Below, in pieces: positions 36,937-47,679 of a stretch of 64,000 nt of DNA. The notes beneath the pieces were generated by a model. The model ran no database searches and was not told the DNA's origin. It saw nothing but the letters and a program-made list of their open reading frames with translations. This DNA comes from Halofilum ochraceum (lineage in GTDB: Bacteria; Pseudomonadota; Gammaproteobacteria; XJ16; Halofilaceae). Position 1 is the first letter of the stretch; every line of letters starts with the position of its first letter. The stretch covers positions 1 to 64,000 of the forward strand of contig NZ_LVEG02000011.1 in the NCBI RefSeq assembly GCF_001614315.2. Direction: 5' to 3'. A program made the translations under genes and the position numbers.

Positions 36937-39075
36937 ATGGCACCATCCGGCGAACCCCCCGTCGATCGTCCTGACTCCTGGAGTGAGCCCGTACGCCCAC
37001 GCGGCTCCTCTTACGGGCGGGCTGGCGCGCGCTGGATGGTCGATCCGGAGGCCATCTGGCGCCCCGATGCAAGCGGGCGTAACGGCCCTGCGTCGTATGC
37101 CGTACTGATCACCGATGGCCGGATTGCCGAGGGTGCGTGGCCGCGCATACGGACGGCCGATGCCGGATTCGCGCGCATGACGGGGTATACGGCCGAGGCC
37201 GTGGATGGCGTGGCGTTTGGTGCGCTTGCGGGGCCGGCCACCGATCAGGCGCGGCTGCGCAACGCGTTCGAGCGACTGGCGGTCGGACAGCCCGATGCCG
37301 GGGCGACGGTTCAGTACCGGCGTGACGGCACGCCGTTCGGCATGGCCTGGCGTGTCGACCCCGTTCGCATCGACGCCCTGGGCATCATGCACTGGATCTG
37401 GGTCCTGCACGAAATCGATGTCGATCGGGCCGCCGCCGAGGGCGATCATGCCGCGCCCCGGGACGCGGCGATCTTCGTCGCCACCGCGCCCACGTCCGCG
37501 GATGGCGAGGACCGTATCGTGCATATCAACGACGGCTTCACCGCGCTGACCGGCTACGGCGCTGACGAATTGTCTGGACTCGGCCCAGGGTTCCTCCAGG
37601 GCGACGGTGGTCCGATGGGGGAACGCGAACGCCTGCGACGCGCATTGGCGGGCGGCTGGCCCTGTCGTGTCGAGCTGCTGAATTACACCCGCGCCGGCCG
37701 TCCGTTCTGGAACGCCATGGATCTTTTGCCGTTCCGGAATGCTCCGGGCGAGGTCGTCTACTGGCTCGGGCTGTCGCACGATGTCACCGAAGACCGAGAC
37801 CGTGAACAGCGCCGCTACGAGGCGGCCTATTACGACGATCTCACGGGGCTGCCGAACCGGGCGCTTGCGCAGGCCCGCATCGAGCGGGCCATTCGCACCG
37901 CGCACCGCAATCGCGGCAGGGTCGCGCTGCTGTATATCGACCTGGACGGGTTCGACGCGCAGCGCCCGCATTTTTCTCGGCCGGAGCTGAACGACTGTCT
38001 GAGCCGCCTGGCGACTCGCTTCGCCGACGCGACAAGGGACTCCGATACGCTCGCCTACGTCGGCGGCGATGAATTCCTGGTGGTGGCCGAGGATATCGCC
38101 ACCGAGGCCGACAGCCGTGACATCGCCGAACGGCTTTGCGCCGTGGCGGCCCGACCGATTCGCCTCGGCGCGGGGCGCGAATGCATTGGCGCGAGTGTCG
38201 GGATCAGCATCTACCCCGATCATGGCGGCGATTCGGAGCAACTGCTGCAGCGCGCCGATGCGGCGCTGGTCCAGGCGCGCTACGACGACGAATCGATCGG
38301 GGTGTACAGCCCCGCGCGCATGGGCGCGCGCCTGGAAAGGCTGTGCTCGGACGACACGCTGCGCGGCGCAATCCGGCGCGACGAATTCGCGGTCGCGCTG
38401 CAGCCGGTGGTGGGGCTCGCCAGTGGTCAGGTCGTCGCGCATGAAGCCCTTGCGCGCTGGCATCATCCGCGCGAAGGCTGGATTCCGCCCGCCGATTTCC
38501 TCCCGCTCGCGTTCGAGCGCGGTTGTGCGGCCCTGATCAGCGAACGCGTGCAGACGCTGGCGTTCGCGGCGCTCGCGCTATGGTGGACCGTCCTCCCGGA
38601 GCCGCGCCCACGGGCCGTGCTCAATGTCGATTACGCGGAACTCGTGGCGGGTCGATTCGCCGCCGGTCTGCTCGATCGCCTGGCGGCAGAAGATCTACCG
38701 CCCAGCGCCGTGGAACTCGATCTGCGCGCGGCCCTGCTGCGCCGCGCCACCGACACCGAGCTCGATGAATTGCGGCGGCTTCATTCCGCCGGCGTCACGT
38801 TGGCCCTGGATGCCTGTCAGCACCCGGATGACGTAACCCCCTTGCTTGCCCGGCTGCCAGTGGAATGGATCAAGCTCGCCGGCCCGCTGGTCCGCGACGT
38901 CCATCTCGACCCGACCCGGCGTGATCTCGCGAATCGATTGGTCACGCTGGCGACCGAGAATGGTCTATCCGTGTCCGCAGTAGCGGTCGAGACCGCGGAG
39001 GAGGCGGAATACCTCCACGGGATCGGCTGCTTCGCGGCGCAGGGGCATCATTTCGGTCGCCCCGAAATCATCTGA
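36937..39075 (+). CDS. PAS-PAS-GGDEF-EAL protein with altered active sites
   Basis: 712 residues, no membrane segment. Two PAS-like sensor domains (about 50-160 and 175-290) precede a GGDEF domain (295-455) and an EAL domain (475-710). GGDEF (376-380) and the RDSD inhibitory site (367-370) are intact, but the nucleotide-binding FKxINDxxGH block reads FDAQRPHFSR (339-348). In the EAL domain E503, N563, E593, D625, K646 and Q702 remain. The second Asp of DDFG is Ala626 and the Glu of AEGVET is Val682. It is probably a c-di-GMP or GTP sensor rather than a full enzyme. GGAG lies 10 nt before the ATG. Confidence 0.9.
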   Translation: MAPSGEPPVDRPDSWSEPVRPRGSSYGRAGARWMVDPEAIWRPDASGRNGPASYAVLITDGRIAEGAWPRIRTADAGFARMTGYTAEAVDGVAFGALAGPATDQARLRNAFERLAVGQPDAGATVQYRRDGTPFGMAWRVDPVRIDALGIMHWIWVLHEIDVDRAAAEGDHAAPRDAAIFVATAPTSADGEDRIVHINDGFTALTGYGADELSGLGPGFLQGDGGPMGERERLRRALAGGWPCRVELLNYTRAGRPFWNAMDLLPFRNAPGEVVYWLGLSHDVTEDRDREQRRYEAAYYDDLTGLPNRALAQARIERAIRTAHRNRGRVALLYIDLDGFDAQRPHFSRPELNDCLSRLATRFADATRDSDTLAYVGGDEFLVVAEDIATEADSRDIAERLCAVAARPIRLGAGRECIGASVGISIYPDHGGDSEQLLQRADAALVQARYDDESIGVYSPARMGARLERLCSDDTLRGAIRRDEFAVALQPVVGLASGQVVAHEALARWHHPREGWIPPADFLPLAFERGCAALISERVQTLAFAALALWWTVLPEPRPRAVLNVDYAELVAGRFAAGLLDRLAAEDLPPSAVELDLRAALLRRATDTELDELRRLHSAGVTLALDACQHPDDVTPLLARLPVEWIKLAGPLVRDVHLDPTRRDLANRLVTLATENGLSVSAVAVETAEEAEYLHGIGCFAAQGHHFGRPEII

Positions 39076-39323
39076 TCCCCCCGGAAGGCATGCCGCTGGT
39101 CCGGGCGGTTCCGCGCGTCCCCGCATTTCGCCGTTTTCCTCAGGCGTGAACCACGTCACGGAAAAAGGGGCGCTGGCCGACTATGGTTCGCCGACATAGG
39201 GTCGATCAGTCCGCCACCGGCGAGGCGACGACCCGCGCGGGGTGCGGCGCTGCACGGGCGCCGGCCCGGCCGTGCCCGCGGCACGGTGGCGCGCACCGAC
39301 GTGTCATGCCAGGAGGCGGATCC

Positions 39324-40673
39324 ATGGCTCAGGATAACGGGACCACCGGTGTACCGGTCGAACTGCTGCGGCCGGGCCTTTACGTACGCGAACTCGACCG
39401 TCCATGGGTGGAAACGCCCTTCCTGTTCCAGGGATTCCGGATCCTGGGGGCGGAGGAACTGGAGGCGCTCCGCGAGTATTGCCGGATCGTCATCATCGAT
39501 GACGAGCGCTCCGACGAGAAGGCCCTTGCAGCCGTCCGCCGCGAGGTCGTGAAACAGGGCCATGCGCTGGCGGAGGAACAGTCCGGGCCGGCCGAGGCGC
39601 AGCCCGCGAAAGCCACGCGACCAACCCCGAAGCGCCCGTCGGAGCGGGCACGCCGCCGCAGTGTGGGTGTCCTGTTCGCCGAGGCCCAGAATCCGGACCG
39701 CAAGCGTTTCTCGACCCTTGTGCAGGCCGCCAGCGCGGTCCGCGGGGATGCGCAGGCAGCCGCTAGCGATGCCCTGATCCGTGCACGCGACGGACGCATG
39801 GTGGATGTCGCGCGGATCGAGACCACGGTCGACGAGTTGACCGATCTCGTGATCGAGGATCCGACCGCTTCGCTGTGGCTCACCCGGATGCGCGAACGGG
39901 ACGAGGCGATGGCCGTTCACGCCGTGAACACCACGGTGCTGGCGCTGACCCTGGGCGCCCACCTTGGAATCGAGCGCCGTGGACTGCGCCGGCTTGCGCT
40001 CGGCGCGCTCCTGCACGACGTCGGCAAGACGACGTTGCCGCGTGAGCTGCTCGAGAAGCCCGACGCGCTGACTGGACCGGAACTGGCGCGCGCGCGCGAG
40101 TATCCGCAGGCCGGTTATGAACTGGTGGCCGAAAGCGGCCAGGTTCACACCGAGTCGCTGGAGGTGATCCGCCTGCACCGCGAACGCTGGGACGGCGGTG
40201 GCTACCCGCGGGGTCTGCGCGGCGAAATGATCCCGCGCAAGGCGCTGATCGTCGGCCTCGCCGATGCCTACGACACGATGACCTCCAGGCGGCCGTGGGC
40301 GGAGGCCGTGGCGCCCGACAAGGCGCTGCATGAGCTGTACGCCAACGCCGCGCAGGAATTCAGCGTGGATCTGGTGCAGGAGTTTATCCGCTGCATGGGC
40401 ATATTCCCGGTGGGCAGCGTGGTCGAGCTCGACAACGGCGCGCGCGGGATCGTGGTCGGGGCACGCCCGGGCGGCGGTCTGTGGCCGACCATCCTCATGG
40501 TCCGCACGCCGGACGGCGAGCCCTACCGCAAACGCCTGCTGGTCAATCTCGGTGCCGAGGTACGTCGCTCGCGCGAAGACGGCCCCCGCCGCATCGCGCG
40601 CTCGATCGACGCGTCCGCCTCGGGGATCGATGTGTCGCGGCTGGTCGCGCGCGAGTTCGGCCTGGCGGCCTGA
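39324..40673 (+). CDS. HD-GYP protein with lost metal ligands
   Basis: 449 residues from the ATG at 39324 (AGGAGG 7 nt upstream). An N-terminal DUF3391 domain (about 1-60) and an Ala/Pro/Arg-rich linker (80-112) precede an HD-GYP domain. HDVGK is at 231-235. The expected HP motif reads YP (Y260), and HHE reads HRE (285-287) in HRERWDGGGYP. Two usual iron ligands are therefore missing, so cyclic-di-GMP hydrolysis is doubtful. It is a paralogue of the gene at 41571, which has all residues. Confidence 0.9.
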   Translation: MAQDNGTTGVPVELLRPGLYVRELDRPWVETPFLFQGFRILGAEELEALREYCRIVIIDDERSDEKALAAVRREVVKQGHALAEEQSGPAEAQPAKATRPTPKRPSERARRRSVGVLFAEAQNPDRKRFSTLVQAASAVRGDAQAAASDALIRARDGRMVDVARIETTVDELTDLVIEDPTASLWLTRMRERDEAMAVHAVNTTVLALTLGAHLGIERRGLRRLALGALLHDVGKTTLPRELLEKPDALTGPELARAREYPQAGYELVAESGQVHTESLEVIRLHRERWDGGGYPRGLRGEMIPRKALIVGLADAYDTMTSRRPWAEAVAPDKALHELYANAAQEFSVDLVQEFIRCMGIFPVGSVVELDNGARGIVVGARPGGGLWPTILMVRTPDGEPYRKRLLVNLGAEVRRSREDGPRRIARSIDASASGIDVSRLVAREFGLAA

Positions 40674-41570: not shown

Positions 41571-42857
41571 ATGGTCGACGTCAAACATCTTCGCGGCATT
41601 CCGGTAGAGCAACTCCGTTACGGCCTCTACGTCGTCGAGCCGGACCGTCCGTGGACCGAAATCCCGCTGATGTTCCAGGGTTTCGAGATATCGACCGATG
41701 AGGAACTGGAGGTCCTGCGATCGTATTGCGAGCAGGTCTATGTTGATCCGGATCGCTGCAGCGCGGACGCACTCGAGGCGCTCGACCGTCCAGCCGCGGA
41801 TCAGGAGGTCGGTCTGTCCACGCCGCGGCCGGAGACGGATACCGCCAATGCCTTCGGTAACGAGCGCTATCCGGATACCGCCCGCTTTGAGCGCCTGCTT
41901 CGCCGCGCGTGGGAGAGCCGCGCGCAGACCCGTCGTTTCGTCGAGGCCGTGTTCCAGGGGCTGGATGGTGGCGATTTCCCGGATGTCCGCGAGGGCCGGG
42001 TTGCCGTCGCCGATCTGCTGCAGACGGTGGCGGGGAATCCCGGCGCCGCGGTCTGGCTTTCCAACCTCGACGAACGGGATGCGCCCACCTCGGTCCACTC
42101 GATCAACGTCTGCATCCTCGCCCTGACGTTCGGTGCCCATCTCGGACTCGAGCGTGAGGAGCTTGAACGCATCGGCCTCGGTGCGCTGCTGCATGATACG
42201 GGGAAACTCTTCATGCCGCCCGCGATCCGGGACAAGACCGATGCGCTGACGGATGCGGAGTGGGACATCGCGCGCCGTCACCCGCAGGATGGGTACGATA
42301 TCCTGCTCGAGAAGGGCGAATTCCCCTCCGAGGTGCTCGATATCGTCCGCCTGCATCATGAGCGTCTGGACGGCAGCGGTTACCCCTCCGGGCGTGCGGG
42401 TGTGGAATTGCCGCTGCATGTGCGGGTCGTGGCCCTGGCCAATGCCTATGACTCGCTGACCAGCGAACGCCCCTACCGCGCCGCGATGGCCGCCGACAAG
42501 GCGCTGCAGCAGCTCTACAACGGCGCCGGCGGGACCTTTGGCGACCGCCTGGTGCAGGAATTCATCCGCTGTGTCGGCATCTATCCGGCCGGCAGCCTCG
42601 TCGAACTCGACAATGGCGCGGCCGGCGTGGTGCTCGGGTCGCGCCCGGACGCCCGCATCCAGCCGACGGTCCTGCTCGTGCGTACGCCGGATGGCGAGTA
42701 CTACCGCAAGCGGGTGGTCCTGAATCTCGCCGCCGAGGTCGGGAGTGAAGGCCCGGCGCCCGCCCGTCATATCCGGCGGGCGCTCAATCCCTCGGAGGAG
42801 GACATCGACGTCGCGGGGATCGTGGCGATCGAGTTCGGCCTCGACGCGGCAGGCTGA
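41571..42857 (+). CDS. HD-GYP cyclic-di-GMP phosphodiesterase
   Basis: 428 residues, DUF3391 at the N-terminus (about 1-65) and an HD-GYP domain with all key residues: HDTGK at 208-212, the RRHPQDGYD histidine (H237) and HHERLDGSGYP at 262-272. Expected to hydrolyse c-di-GMP to pGpG/GMP. Closely related to the protein at 39324 in domain order, start and C-terminal tail, so a duplication is likely. Confidence 0.93.
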   Translation: MVDVKHLRGIPVEQLRYGLYVVEPDRPWTEIPLMFQGFEISTDEELEVLRSYCEQVYVDPDRCSADALEALDRPAADQEVGLSTPRPETDTANAFGNERYPDTARFERLLRRAWESRAQTRRFVEAVFQGLDGGDFPDVREGRVAVADLLQTVAGNPGAAVWLSNLDERDAPTSVHSINVCILALTFGAHLGLEREELERIGLGALLHDTGKLFMPPAIRDKTDALTDAEWDIARRHPQDGYDILLEKGEFPSEVLDIVRLHHERLDGSGYPSGRAGVELPLHVRVVALANAYDSLTSERPYRAAMAADKALQQLYNGAGGTFGDRLVQEFIRCVGIYPAGSLVELDNGAAGVVLGSRPDARIQPTVLLVRTPDGEYYRKRVVLNLAAEVGSEGPAPARHIRRALNPSEEDIDVAGIVAIEFGLDAAG

Positions 42858-42896: not shown

Positions 42897-43847
42897 TCAG
42901 TCGCGGTCGACCTGCTCCACCAGATGTTCGGCCGCGAACAGGTCGAGATGCGCCCCGCCGCCGTTCTTGAACAGGGTGATTTCCGTATCGTCCCCGCGGC
43001 CGGACTGACGGCCGCCGCAGAGTTCGAACAGGTCGGCAATGATGTCCGATTCCTCGATCACGCCGTCCGTGATCGGGTGGAACAGGTCGCCGGCCGCATC
43101 GACGGTGCTCGCGCGGAAATCGACGAACAGCCGGGCCCGCCGCACGCAGTCGTCGTCGCTCTCGCGCATGGACGGGTTGAACGACCCGACCAGATCCAGA
43201 TGTTGCCCCGGTTGCAGCAGCTGGCCCTTGATCAGGGGCTCCATGGTCCCGGTAGCGCAGCAGATGATGTCCGCCTCCGGGATCGCGTCGGCGATCGAAT
43301 CGACCGCCTCCGCGTCGATTTCCTCCGCCCGCAATGCCTCGACCAGGCTGTCGCGGTGGTGGGGGGTACGATTCCAGACCAGCACGCGGCGCAGCGACGG
43401 GCGCGCCGCCTGGTGCGCCGCAATCAGGTGCGGGGCGAGCGCCCCGGCGCCCACCATCAGCAGCGTCCCGGAATCCGAACGTGACAGCAGCCGACTGCCG
43501 AGTGCCGAATCGGCTGCCGTCTTGCGCAGGGTCAGGGCGGTGCCGTCGATATTCGCCTTTGGCTCGCCGGTGTCGCCGTCAAACAGCTGGTAGCTCGCAT
43601 GGATCGTGGGCCGGCCGGCGTCCGCGTTGCGCGGGATGACTGTGGCCATCTTCACGCCCATCACGCGCCCGGGGAACCAGGCCGGCAGCACCAGAAACGC
43701 CTCGCCTTGATGAACCCCGTGGTCCGGGGCCTGCATCAGGGTCCGGTCCATCCATGGCGGGCTGTCGCGATGCGCCCGTTCCAGGGCCTCGATCAGACCG
43801 GGGTAGTGCAGTCGCTCGTGCACCGTTTCCGCGTCGATTACATGCAT
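42897..43847 (-). CDS. Ornithine cyclodeaminase / mu-crystallin family protein
   Basis: 316 residues from the ATG at 43847. The NAD(P)-binding region LLMVGAGALAPHLIAAH is near residue 130, and the substrate-side GVKMATVIPRNADAGRPTIHASYQLFD matches the family. Members are NAD(P)-dependent cyclodeaminases, ketimine reductases or amino-acid dehydrogenases, so the substrate cannot be set from sequence. It follows the aldehyde dehydrogenase by 102 nt on the same strand and is likely part of that operon. Confidence 0.85.
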   Translation of the reverse strand: MHVIDAETVHERLHYPGLIEALERAHRDSPPWMDRTLMQAPDHGVHQGEAFLVLPAWFPGRVMGVKMATVIPRNADAGRPTIHASYQLFDGDTGEPKANIDGTALTLRKTAADSALGSRLLSRSDSGTLLMVGAGALAPHLIAAHQAARPSLRRVLVWNRTPHHRDSLVEALRAEEIDAEAVDSIADAIPEADIICCATGTMEPLIKGQLLQPGQHLDLVGSFNPSMRESDDDCVRRARLFVDFRASTVDAAGDLFHPITDGVIEESDIIADLFELCGGRQSGRGDDTEITLFKNGGGAHLDLFAAEHLVEQVDRD

Positions 43848-43949
43848 GGAGCCGTCCCGGCGGGTTGCAATATCGGGGCCGCTACGGTAGCAGGCCTCGC
43901 GCGGCCCCGCGATTCGGCGGGACGGCTGCATGCCGGGGGCGAAGGCCCG

Positions 43950-45401
43950 TTACCCGCCGAGGCGGATCGCGACGTTCTTGGTCTGCAGGTAGTTGTCCAG
44001 CGCCTCCAGGCCTTTCTCGCGGCCGTAGCCGGACTGCCGCGTACCGCCGAACGGCGTCTCGACGCCGCCGGCGAACCATTCGTTGACGAACACCTGGCCG
44101 GCGACGAGTTGCTGCGAGGTCTTCATCGCCCGATCGAGGTCACGCGTGAATACGCCGGCGACCAGCCCGTAGTCGGTCCCGTTTGCGATCTCGATCGCCT
44201 CTTCGTCGCTCCCGAACTTCATCAGCGAAAGCGCTGGCCCGAAGACCTCCTCGCGGGCGATGTCCATATCGGGGTGAACATCGGTAAACACCGTTGGCTG
44301 CATGAACCAGCCCGCGCGGTCGATGCGGCGACCGCCCGTGACGGCGGTGGCGCCGGCATCGATCCCCGACCGGCAAAGCCGCTCGACGCGCTCACGCTGG
44401 CCCGACGAGATCAGCGGCGTGAGGTCCGGATTCTCCAGCCCATGCCCCACGCTGAGTCCTTCGGCCAGCTGCACGGCGCGCTCGACCAGTTCGTCATGGA
44501 TGGATTCATGCACCAGCAGGCGCGACATCGCGGAGCAGACCTGGCCGGCGTTGAAGAAGATGCCGCTGCGGATACTCGCCAGCACCGTGTCGAGATCGGC
44601 ATCCGCGTGCACGATGCCCGCCGATTTGCCGCCGAGCTCCATCACGCAGGGCACGATGCGATCAGCGGCCGCGTGCAGGATCGAGCGCCCGGTCGGCACC
44701 GAACCGGTGAACACGATCTGGTTGACCAGCGGATGCTGGACCAGCGCGGCACCGGCCTCGTCGCCCCAGCCGGTGATGATGTTGACCGCGCCCTCGGGCG
44801 CGCCGCCCCGCTCGCAGGCCACGCCGAGCAGAAGCGCGGCGAGCGGGGTCAGTTCCGGGGTCTTGATGACGACGGTATTGCCGGTGGCGAGCGCCGCCGC
44901 CAGCGAGCGGGACGCCAGCGCGACCGGGAAGTTCCAGGGCACGATCTGCGCCGAGACGCCGAGCGGCTCACGCACCGTCCAGTCGACATAGCCGTCGCCG
45001 AGCGGGATCGAGCGGCCCTCGATTTTGTCCGCCATGCCGCCGTAGTACTCGAAATAGCGCGCGGCCTCCTCGAACTCGTGCCGGGCGTCGTCCAGTGCCT
45101 TGCCCGACTCCCGGCACAGGATCTCCGCGCCCTGGTCGGTGACCTGGCGGATCTCCGCGGCGATACGGAACATCATCTCCAGACGCTTCTCCGGGCGCGG
45201 TCCGGTCAGCGCCCGCGAGCGGTGGCAGTCGGCCGCGGCGCGCACGGCGCGGTCGACGTCGTCCCGGCCTGCCAGGGCGACCTCGGCGATGGTCTCGCCG
45301 GTCCCGGGATCCTCGACCCCGAGCCGGCGGTCCGCGTCCACCCAGTGGCCGCCGATGAAGCTCTGCCAGACGGGGTCGATGTTTTCCGCGGGTTCCGTCA
45401 T
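43950..45401 (-). CDS. NAD(P)-dependent aldehyde dehydrogenase
   Basis: 483 residues from the ATG at 45401, with GGAGG about 10 nt upstream; the ATG overlaps the stop of the Rieske oxygenase (ATGA). The active-site Glu in VMELGGKSAG and Cys in NAGQVCSAMSR are present, as are the cofactor-binding VPWNFPVALASRSLAAALATGNTVV segment and late EEVFGP. The translational coupling suggests it oxidises an aldehyde produced by the oxygenase, for example betaine aldehyde. That is inference. Confidence 0.93.
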   Translation of the reverse strand: MTEPAENIDPVWQSFIGGHWVDADRRLGVEDPGTGETIAEVALAGRDDVDRAVRAAADCHRSRALTGPRPEKRLEMMFRIAAEIRQVTDQGAEILCRESGKALDDARHEFEEAARYFEYYGGMADKIEGRSIPLGDGYVDWTVREPLGVSAQIVPWNFPVALASRSLAAALATGNTVVIKTPELTPLAALLLGVACERGGAPEGAVNIITGWGDEAGAALVQHPLVNQIVFTGSVPTGRSILHAAADRIVPCVMELGGKSAGIVHADADLDTVLASIRSGIFFNAGQVCSAMSRLLVHESIHDELVERAVQLAEGLSVGHGLENPDLTPLISSGQRERVERLCRSGIDAGATAVTGGRRIDRAGWFMQPTVFTDVHPDMDIAREEVFGPALSLMKFGSDEEAIEIANGTDYGLVAGVFTRDLDRAMKTSQQLVAGQVFVNEWFAGGVETPFGGTRQSGYGREKGLEALDNYLQTKNVAIRLGG

Positions 45402-46633
45402 ACGGATGCCGCCTCCCGGGGCGTTTCGGTCCGGTGGGCGCCGTCGCCGATCAGCCGGCGGGCGACCCACTGGTGGAAATGGTGGGTCGGGATGTCCTGC
45501 ACCGGCGAGAATACCCCGCCCTTGTAGCCCGGCGAGGCGCGACCGCGCTGCATCCCCTCAACCATCGTCACATCCTCTTCGAACACCGTTTTCCACGCCT
45601 GCAACTGCGATTCACGCGCGGCGGCATGCTCGTCGTCCACGGCCGCATCGCCGACGTAGCTGATCCGCAGGTGCTCGCGCGTATGGTGCTCGGAGAGCGG
45701 TTCGAGCAGGACCACGAAAAAGTGATCCGCCTGCAGGCCGAGCAACGCGTTCGGATAGAGCGACAGGTATTCGGCTTCCTGCTCGCGCTCTTTCGGCCAC
45801 TGCGAGAACTTCGGCATGGTGATGCCGGCGACCTCGGCCAGATTGTAGACGCGCGTGCCCTGCCCGGCGAACGACTCGCCGTCCTCGTCCAGCACGATGT
45901 AGTGGTCCTCCAGCCGCGAGTAGCTGTTGAGCGCCGGATGGACCCAGGGCAGGTGGTAGGACTCGCAGTAGTTCTCGACCGCCAGCTTCCAGTTCGACTG
46001 CACGTCGAGGGTCAGCTGGCCATCCCCCGCGGCCGGGCGCAGTTCTTCCGGGCCCGTGCGGCCCCAGAAGCTCTCCCAGCGCTTCATGACCGGCTCGATG
46101 TACGCCTCGAACGATTCCGCCTGCCCGTCCAGATTGACGAAGATGATGTCGCACCACACGGCCGAGCGGACGGCCTTGAGACCGTGCTGGCTCTTGTCGA
46201 AACCCTCGCAGGAGTGGCAGTTCATGCCGCCGATATGCGGCGTGCCCTTGAGCGTGCCGTCGAGTCCGTAATGCCAGGAGTGGTACGGGCAGCGCAGGCC
46301 CGCCTCGACCTTCATGGGCTGATCGACCAGCTGACGCCCGCGGTGGCTGCAGACATTGTGAAAGACCCGGACCTGGCCCTGGCGGTCACGCAGCGTGATC
46401 AGCGGGATGCCCAGCAGATGGGTCGGGTGGACCTCGCCGTTCTCCTGGATGTCGCTGGCGAACCCGAGGGCGGTCCAGGTCCGCGCGAACACCTGCTCGC
46501 GTTCCGTGCGCAGGAATTCCGGGTCGGTATAGACGCTGTTCGGCAATCCGTTGGCGTGTGCGGTATCGCGGAGTACGTTCTCGATCCCCTCGGGGATGGC
46601 GCCTTTCTGTGCGGTGTTGAACGGATCAGACAT
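45398..46633 (-). CDS. Rieske non-heme iron oxygenase, alpha subunit
   Basis: 411 residues. Rieske 2Fe-2S ligands are C95-x-H97 and C115-x2-H118 (CSHRG...CPYHSW). The mononuclear iron histidines are H227 and H232 in ENYCESYHLPWVHP. This layout fits the oxygenases that act on quaternary amines (choline monooxygenase, carnitine CntA, glycine betaine GbcA), though ring-hydroxylating types share it. No reductase gene is adjacent. A GGAGGT ribosome site is 6 nt before the ATG. The LysR gene is divergent. Confidence 0.9.
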   Translation of the reverse strand: MSDPFNTAQKGAIPEGIENVLRDTAHANGLPNSVYTDPEFLRTEREQVFARTWTALGFASDIQENGEVHPTHLLGIPLITLRDRQGQVRVFHNVCSHRGRQLVDQPMKVEAGLRCPYHSWHYGLDGTLKGTPHIGGMNCHSCEGFDKSQHGLKAVRSAVWCDIIFVNLDGQAESFEAYIEPVMKRWESFWGRTGPEELRPAAGDGQLTLDVQSNWKLAVENYCESYHLPWVHPALNSYSRLEDHYIVLDEDGESFAGQGTRVYNLAEVAGITMPKFSQWPKEREQEAEYLSLYPNALLGLQADHFFVVLLEPLSEHHTREHLRISYVGDAAVDDEHAAARESQLQAWKTVFEEDVTMVEGMQRGRASPGYKGGVFSPVQDIPTHHFHQWVARRLIGDGAHRTETPREAASV

Positions 46634-46677
46634 GACGGACCTCCATGCGCTTCAGGCCCGGTTCGCGAACCGGTGTG

Positions 46678-46723
46678 ATTAATGACTTTAGCTAATGTAG
46701 GGTCCGCACAAGACCATGTACAA
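46678..46723 (-). promoter_or_regulatory. Rieske operon promoter with LysR-type binding dyad
   Basis: On the minus strand TTGTAC (46723-46718) and TACATT (46699-46694) are 18 nt apart. ATTA-N11-TAAT (46678-46696) is a perfect T-N11-A dyad of the kind LysR proteins bind, and it overlaps the -10 box. It lies 45-63 nt upstream of the Rieske start and 63-81 nt upstream of the divergent lysR start. Confidence 0.5.
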
Positions 46724-46758
46724 TCGAAAGTTTCTCAGTAGGGGTATGCGAAAAGATC

Positions 46759-47679
46759 ATGCCTGATCGTCCCGGACCATTGCCGCCGCTGCAGAACCTG
46801 CGCGCCTTCGAGGCCGCCGCGCGGCTGGAGAGTTTCACCGCGGCCGCGCGCGAACTCTGCCTGACCCAGGGCGCGGTCAGTCGCCAGATCCGCACGCTGG
46901 AGGAACGTCTGCGGGTGTCGCTGTTCGATCGCGGCGACCGCGGCGTGCGCCTGACCGCGGCCGGGCGCCGCTATTACGACGTGGTGGCCGATGCGCTGGG
47001 TGCCGTGGCCCGGGCGACGGCCGATCTCGTCGCGGACGGGGACGACACCACCGTGACCGTCGGTACCACCAGTGCCATCGCCTCGCTGTGGCTCATGCCG
47101 CGTCTGACCGGATTTCGACTGCGGGCGGCCGATCTCGACATCCGGGTCCTGGCGTCCGACCGCGATTTCGAGCGCAACAGCGACGAAGTGGACCTCGTCA
47201 TCGAATACGCACGGGATCCCCAGCAAGGCGAGGGCGTCTGGCGTCTGTTCGACGAAGAGATCTTTCCCGTATGCAGCCCCGACTACCTCGGCGGGCGGGC
47301 GACGCCCGAGCGCGCCGACCAACTCCCGCTCGAGACCCTGCTGGTGCTGGACGACGATCATCCCGACTGGATGGGCTGGACCGAATGGCTGCGCCGTGCC
47401 GGCGTCGAGGCCGGGCCGCTGCGCCACCCGATCCGCATAAACAGCTATCCGACCCTGCTCCAGGCCGCGGCGGCCGGTGAGGGGATCGCCCTCGGCTGGC
47501 GCCATCTGGTCGACGAGTTCCTCGCCGCCGGCACCCTAGTGCCGCTGCTGCCCGAGGCGATGACGGCCCCCGGGGCGTTCTACCTGCGCACGACCCGACC
47601 GGTCGCCGATGACAGTCCCCCTGGCCGGCTGCGGGACTGGTTTCTGGGCACGCATCTTCAGGGCCCGGTCGCATCCTGA
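46759..47679 (+). CDS. LysR-family transcriptional regulator (GcvA-like)
   Basis: 306 residues. N-terminal winged helix-turn-helix (about 10-65, ELCLTQGAVSRQIRTLEERL) begins with LPPLQNLRAFEAAARLESFTAAA, a GcvA-type start. A co-inducer domain follows. Divergent from the Rieske-ALDH-OCD operon with a suitable dyad in the gap, so it very likely controls that operon in response to its substrate. Confidence 0.9.
   Translation: MPDRPGPLPPLQNLRAFEAAARLESFTAAARELCLTQGAVSRQIRTLEERLRVSLFDRGDRGVRLTAAGRRYYDVVADALGAVARATADLVADGDDTTVTVGTTSAIASLWLMPRLTGFRLRAADLDIRVLASDRDFERNSDEVDLVIEYARDPQQGEGVWRLFDEEIFPVCSPDYLGGRATPERADQLPLETLLVLDDDHPDWMGWTEWLRRAGVEAGPLRHPIRINSYPTLLQAAAAGEGIALGWRHLVDEFLAAGTLVPLLPEAMTAPGAFYLRTTRPVADDSPPGRLRDWFLGTHLQGPVAS

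Follow-up and report, generated by a model that had tools for sequence, protein, structure and literature searches.

A separate clade of group V-type Rieske oxygenases paired with an aldehyde dehydrogenase in Halofilum ochraceum and its relatives

The window analysed here is a stretch of 64,000 nucleotides from Halofilum ochraceum (contig NZ_LVEG02000011.1, positions 1 to 64,000). It contains an operon for a Rieske non-haem iron oxygenase, an aldehyde dehydrogenase (ALDH) and a protein of the OCD/mu-crystallin family, with a LysR-type regulator encoded divergently. The oxygenase belongs to a separate, well-supported clade of Rieske oxygenases of the quaternary-ammonium (group V) type. This clade is distinct, widely distributed and without an assigned function; no paper assigning one was recognised in searches of open-licence papers. 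On balance, the oxygenase probably monooxygenates a betaine-type osmolyte to an aldehyde, which the coupled ALDH would then oxidise to an N-methylated acid. The three-gene arrangement and the operator are local to this genome or genus.

Operon layout

The features of the operon are as follows. G000 denotes the window's genome, G001 its sister genome and G002 another genome of the same genus; L numbers denote the loci of relatives.

45398-46633, minus strand: Rieske non-haem iron oxygenase alpha subunit, 411 amino acids (Pfam Ring_hydroxyl_A and Rieske, both above cut-off; tree; AlphaFold2 model)
43950-45401, minus strand: ALDH (nearest NCBIfam family betaine aldehyde dehydrogenase (BADH), below cut-off)
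42897-43847, minus strand: OCD/mu-crystallin family protein of the Delta1-pyrroline/piperideine-2-carboxylate (P2C/Pip2C) reductase type (NF004793, above cut-off)
46759-47679, plus strand: divergent LysR-type regulator, similar to GcvA and choline-sulfate regulators (TIGR03418 and GcvA models, both below cut-off)
46678-46696, no strand: ATTA-N11-TAAT palindrome (pattern match; not kept in G001)
46717-46750, no strand: 34-nucleotide block, candidate regulator site (identical in G001, partial match in G002)

The ALDH start overlaps the Rieske stop at ATGA. An earlier, sequence-only reading of the window had taken the two genes to be translationally coupled; the overlap is confirmed, and the same 1-nucleotide overlap of the two open reading frames (ORFs) recurs in L111, L031, L159 and L184. 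That reading also placed the OCD-family gene downstream of the ALDH gene and a LysR gene divergent to the operon, and both are found there. The gap between the ALDH stop and the OCD start is 102 bp. The family model fits an OCD start at 43847; the ORF list gives a longer version from 43931, which is probably incorrect. In high-GC loci the gene calls are approximate, and in some rows shadow ORFs displaced real genes.

A separate clade of Rieske oxygenases

The best NCBIfam match of the Rieske protein is glycine betaine monooxygenase (NF058607), at 133 bits against a cut-off of 670. The 39 clade proteins of alignment A1 are 45-95% identical to the window protein (L074, which has a stop codon, was dropped from the protein alignment, and neither A1 nor the tree includes the five annotated records L180-L184). 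The tree comprises 53 Rieske proteins, among them 26 of these clade rows; plant choline monooxygenase (CMO) is not included. All 26 sampled rows fall together with 100/100 support, outside the GbcA/Stc2 group and outside CntA/YeaW. Such a tree had been proposed in the sequence-only reading: it separates the clade from GbcA/Stc2 and CntA, but points to no single sister.

The AlphaFold2 model (pLDDT 89.6) is closest in structure to CntA (Z 36.5) and Stc2 (Z 36.2), which are tied at the top, while ring hydroxylases reach at most 34.0; the margin of the group V folds, at Z ~2, is modest. An aromatic ring hydroxylase was rejected on this structural ranking and on the closest sequence families, in keeping with the initial assignment of the oxygenase to the quaternary-amine enzymes.

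Many positions around the iron are near-invariant in the 39 clade proteins, including Tyr222, Glu224, His227, His232 and Asp354, which suggests one shared substrate. Tyr222 corresponds to CntA Tyr203 and is invariant (39/39). The residue at this position is described as dividing group Va, where it is aromatic and makes a cation-pi contact, from group Vb, where it is Asn (PMC7948474). The clade therefore carries the aromatic residue of CntA, CMO and OxyBAC, and not the Asn of GbcA and Stc2.

The remainder of the active site differs from those of the known enzymes. Like CntA/YeaW, the clade has the group Va tyrosine, the bridging Glu and an operon context with BCCT, LysR and ALDH. However, the window protein is only ~26% identical to YeaW, and Tyr203 is the only one of seven tested CntA substrate contacts to be retained; Tyr225, Phe258, Asn270, Tyr295, Tyr315 and Phe319 are all replaced. 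The Cys206-Cys209 pair of CntA is replaced by Ser/Ala and Leu. A carnitine monooxygenase proper was rejected on these replacements. The likeness to GbcA and Stc2 lies in the group V fold. In spinach CMO2 an aromatic choline box of Tyr281, Tyr295 and Phe301 has been proposed; in plant CMO1, for which choline is not considered a substrate, Leu stands at the last two of these positions (PMC6157903). The clade keeps the Tyr281 equivalent (Tyr222) and has Leu at the Tyr295 position and Leu/Ile at that of Phe301, with Leu at both in the window protein, as in CMO1; these two positions were placed by spacing (+3 and +9 after the second iron-binding His), without the plant sequence. The clade shares with plant CMO2 the logic of a Rieske enzyme followed by an ALDH, but its bridging residue is Glu rather than Asp.

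Conserved neighbourhoods outside SAR11

Partners of the Rieske gene were sought within 9 kb in 53 non-SAR11 loci, counting L074 and L180-L184. Several loci end within this distance, so the counts are lower bounds: LysR occurs in at least 33 loci, ALDH in 24, a rubredoxin-rubredoxin reductase in 18, a DAO flavoprotein in 14, an EutQ-like cupin in 14, a BCCT transporter in 13 and OCD in 3. The 24 loci with ALDH contain LysR in 21 cases, the rubredoxin reductase in 17 and BCCT in 12. Because ALDH is found in 24 of the 53 loci and OCD in only 3, the conserved unit is Rieske-ALDH, usually with LysR, a reductase, BCCT and an N-demethylase-like flavoprotein.

An N-demethylase-like or amine-oxidase-like flavoprotein is present in 18 of the 24 ALDH-bearing loci. 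These are DAO6 (14 loci), DMGDH8 (L159 and L184), DAO38 together with sox genes (L031) and sox genes (L071). The six loci lacking one are the window, L111, L043, L047, L048 and L050. Record annotations agree in L181 (Pseudomonas sp. MPC6), L182 (Oceanisphaera), L183 (Cupriavidus pauculus) and L184 (Phaeobacter inhibens). Records of Halomonas, Roseobacter-type bacteria, Pseudomonas, Cupriavidus and Acinetobacter contain members of this highly conserved clade, as do the glycine-betaine islands of the abundant ocean bacterium SAR11.

Two other kinds of neighbour recur. M24-family proteins resembling the dimethylsulfoniopropionate (DMSP) lyase DddP lie beside the Rieske gene at L052:13624-14856 (352) and L181:16216-17463 (441), both below the cut-off of 600. 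A pair consisting of a ~560-amino-acid protein with no Pfam match and a DUF3726 protein is found near the Rieske gene in SAR11, Phaeobacter and Pseudomonas (L159:571-2906, L184:14556-16894, L181:1-1993).

The aldehyde dehydrogenase

The ALDH is nearest to BADH among the NCBIfam families (422.6 bits, cut-off 668.6; 398.8 against 593 for another BADH model) and reaches none of the curated cut-offs shown. An Arg in the motif WNFPxxxxxRSL is common to the 24 operon ALDHs that were aligned (the window and 23 loci), and it aligns with the Arg of GabD from E. coli. At this position Trp is found in BetB and PatD, in BetB presumably as part of the trimethylammonium box. A second Trp is retained in the operon enzymes. 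The substrate carboxylate of human succinic semialdehyde dehydrogenase (SSADH) is bound by Arg213, a residue reported as conserved in all SSADHs (PMC11681614). The malic semialdehyde dehydrogenase (MSA-DH) of the carnitine pathway is likewise described as binding a carboxylate, through Arg166, Arg284 and Ser447 (PMC11353897). Read from the motif rather than from a computed alignment, SSADH Arg213 and MSA-DH Arg166 share the position of the GabD Arg. The conserved Arg points to a carboxylated aldehyde, and not betaine aldehyde, as the likely substrate of the ALDH. Of the SSADH triad Arg213, Arg334 and Ser498, the equivalent of Arg213 alone is present.

SAR11 and betaine genes in clade genomes

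Among 56 SAR11 loci, the gene directly downstream of the Rieske gene is betaine-homocysteine-methyltransferase-like in 30 and the gene directly upstream is transporter binding-protein-like in 31; a dimethylglycine-dehydrogenase (DMGDH)-like gene lies within five genes in 39. These labels were given partly by eye and from published SAR11 betaine genes (PMC3160333), with partial support from hidden Markov models. BetA was reported as not found in SAR11 in a 2015 study (PMC4744692). In our searches BetA scores above cut-off in 18 of 25 clade genomes, including that of the window; the five SAR11 genomes in this set of 25 have no BetA above cut-off. GbcA proper passes its cut-off in 8 of 30 clade genomes, and the window's genus is not represented among the eight.

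The genome of the window also encodes a second, distant Rieske protein within G000:C5:113000-133000 (28% identity, GbcA model 142/670 bits; loci L114 and L117). Its neighbours are a PotABCD-like ABC transporter, an OYE/DgcA-like flavoprotein, an L-carnitine dehydrogenase (445 over 414), a thiolase-like gene and BetA above cut-off. This region is probably a carnitine/choline catabolic island.

Proposed function and rival explanations

The enzyme family, the phylogenetic separateness of the clade, Tyr222, the conserved Rieske-ALDH pairing and the linked partners were observed directly; the monooxygenation chemistry, the class of substrate, the order of steps, the source of electrons and the regulation are proposed as follows. 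The Rieske enzyme would hold the cation of a betaine-type osmolyte near the iron through a cation-pi contact with Tyr222, and would oxidise a carbon of the non-methyl arm to give an aldehyde. The translationally coupled ALDH would convert this to the acid, which in relatives would pass to the N-methyl-amine flavoproteins. In the window genome an unlinked reductase would supply the electrons; in relatives this role would fall to a linked reductase, either a rubredoxin-rubredoxin reductase fusion or one of PDR type. The LysR regulator would probably control the Rieske-ALDH pair.

Because an amine-oxidising flavoprotein often follows, an acid with a tertiary or secondary amine is a more likely product of the ALDH than glycine betaine. 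On chemical grounds, opening a cyclic betaine at the C-N bond would yield such an amine acid with both charges kept, and would also account for the Arg-bearing ALDH. The substrate is quite possibly a carboxylated (zwitterionic) betaine, for example a cyclic one, perhaps proline betaine, that is opened to a semialdehyde; a substrate of some other kind is conceivable, and choline is a rather doubtful one. The amine or imine step suspected in the sequence-only reading gains support, as an amine step, from the N-demethylase-like flavoproteins of relatives, but not from the OCD gene on which it had been based.

Several observations weigh against the betaine-osmolyte reading. SAR11 and many other alphaproteobacterial members have no linked ALDH, and many alphaproteobacterial members lack the partners described above. 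In the window genome itself no flavoprotein, transporter or reductase is linked to the operon. The ALDH has one of the three SSADH carboxylate contacts, with Phe or Tyr at the Arg334 position and Gly at that of Ser498, and its Arg could instead pair with an equally invariant Glu (NEW[FY]). The tree settles no nearest sister for the clade, and many outgroup rows are long-branched. Finally, the betaine genes directly beside the SAR11 Rieske gene fit choline equally well.

The SAR11 context makes choline the main named rival. Here the oxygenase would be a choline monooxygenase acting with a BADH, the bacterial counterpart of the plant route, and glycine betaine would serve as an osmoprotectant or a catabolic entry. 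Tyr222 matches Tyr281 of the choline box, the ALDH is nearest to BADH, and the LysR protein is nearest to the choline-sulfate regulator. The SAR11 Rieske gene lies amid glycine-betaine genes in organisms reported to be without BetA (PMC4744692), and a yeast CMO-like gene is required for growth on choline as nitrogen source (cited in PMC6157903). However, BetA is present in the window genome and most of the clade genomes searched, the residues at Tyr295 and Phe301 are those of plant CMO1, and the BetB Trp has become Arg in 24 of 24 ALDHs. Amine-oxidising flavoproteins also come directly after, yet betaine is quaternary. The choline-to-betaine route, offered in the sequence-only reading, thus retains some probability but is disfavoured by a canonical BetA in the genome and by Arg for Trp in the ALDH pocket; we consider it doubtful. 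It is less probable still that an acyclic betaine or a sulfonium compound (gamma-butyrobetaine, beta-alanine betaine or DMSP) is cleaved in the manner of CntA. A tertiary amine or sulfide would leave, and a carboxylated semialdehyde would go to the ALDH. This would suit the ALDH Arg, with its resemblance to MSA-DH Arg166 and SSADH Arg213, the M24/DddP-like neighbours and a layout resembling the Acinetobacter carnitine operon (lysR, bcct, cntA, cntB, MSA-DH; PMC11353897). On the other side stand the loss of six of seven CntA contacts and of the Cys pair, and flavoprotein partners of an N-demethylase-like type, for which trimethylamine is not an expected substrate. Genes for trimethylamine oxidation were not recognised in the set of linked partners, although no search was aimed at them. 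A GbcA-like glycine betaine demethylase is very improbable: NF058607 is the best NCBIfam match and DMGDH-like genes are neighbours, but the score is far under the cut-off, Tyr replaces Asn at the group V switch, the clade falls outside the GbcA/Stc2 group, and true GbcA is also present in 8 of 30 clade genomes. The GbcA-type demethylase was rejected on the score, the Tyr and the tree position.

The use of a Rieske enzyme with an ALDH for quaternary amines is already known from the carnitine operon, and the betaine-osmolyte system proposed here is a variant of it. The Acinetobacter operon (lysR-bcct-cntAB-MSA-DH-MDH) is alike in layout and in one Arg of carboxylate-binding type in its ALDH. It is unlike the present system in that the window Rieske protein belongs to a different clade, the ALDH is BADH-like, relatives have flavoprotein partners and no CntB is linked.

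Electron donor

The ORF list for 38.0-52.5 kb, read by eye, shows no reductase next to the operon, in agreement with the sequence-only reading. Elsewhere in the genome, beyond the window, a 41% relative of the rubredoxin reductase domain is encoded at G000:C11:89794-90933; there are also a separate rubredoxin-like match at C12:10037-10201 and weak PDR-type reductase matches (best 33%). Any of these, all of them unlinked, could be the electron source. In L035 (9226-10608) and 17 other loci, a rubredoxin-rubredoxin reductase fusion is linked to the Rieske oxygenase gene. If it is the true partner, this would be an unusual donor for the Rieske class.

The OCD gene

The OCD protein matches NF004793 at 345.7 bits, above the cut-off of 322. 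A role as EutC in ectoine metabolism was dropped (101.7 against 471.65 bits). In the non-SAR11 loci, all three cases of linkage to a clade Rieske gene fall in the window's genus. Of the three genes whose joint occurrence elsewhere the sequence-only reading had named as a check, Rieske and ALDH do recur together, and a conserved unit that includes OCD was rejected beyond the genus. In G000 and G001 the three genes form one operon. In G002 the Rieske and OCD genes are within ~5 kb, while the ALDH gene (74%) is on a different contig; 3.2 kb away from it lies a proline-racemase-family gene whose match to trans-3-hydroxyproline dehydratase stays under the cut-off (252/550). Because of this placement of the G002 ALDH gene, the OCD protein may serve P2C reduction independently. 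Proline-racemase-family proteins are encoded elsewhere in all three genus genomes, and two of them resemble trans-3-hydroxyproline dehydratase below cut-off (G002:C156:97210-98175 and G000:C7:21809-22774, both with a PIG3-type oxidoreductase next to them).

The OCD gene was probably added at the level of the genus, for a protein that acts on a cyclic imino acid. It could alternatively be a genuine step of the pathway, reducing a cyclic imine derived from the Rieske/ALDH product. The shared operon in G000 and G001 and the proximity to the Rieske gene in G002, despite the ALDH gene lying elsewhere, speak for this, as does an Ldh_2-family gene nearby in L159 and L184; the Ldh_2 superfamily also includes imine reductases. 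The narrow linkage and the proline-racemase-family proteins, an independent source of P2C, argue the other way, and we consider such a step unlikely.

Regulator and intergenic region

The nearest NCBIfam model to the LysR protein is the choline-sulfate regulator TIGR03418 (262.9 bits, cut-off 324.8), followed by GcvA (252.1, cut-off 288). The ATTA-N11-TAAT site described in the sequence-only reading is present, and is the only match in 64 kb (0.01 expected). However, G001, whose Rieske protein is 95% identical, carries ATCAGTATAAATCATTGCT in its place, and the site was rejected as a conserved operator. Its supposed overlap with the -10 of the operon is unsupported, since no sigma-70-like promoter was found in 46600-46800. 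The block at 46717-46750 is identical over 34 nucleotides in G001 and retained in part in G002, and by this sequence conservation may be the better candidate for a regulator site.

Other genes in the window

Two tandem related proteins (39183-40673 and 41571-42857) appear by eye to be HD-GYP phosphodiesterase-like, and the protein encoded at 36937-39075 appears PAS-GGDEF-EAL-like.

Implications

A more far-reaching proposal, which we consider improbable, is that the clade is a new functional type of Rieske oxygenase that opens a cyclic betaine (for example, proline betaine to N,N-dimethylglutamate semialdehyde), and that the ALDH and N-demethylating flavoproteins finish a route to glutamate; marine or halophilic bacteria, SAR11 among them, would then have an unrecognised entry of osmolytes into metabolism. 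Both in the sea and in saline environments, betaines are an important form in which nitrogen and carbon are exchanged. Identifying the substrate would either add a first step to the known breakdown of osmolytes or correct one, and would help to settle whether a true bacterial choline monooxygenase exists.

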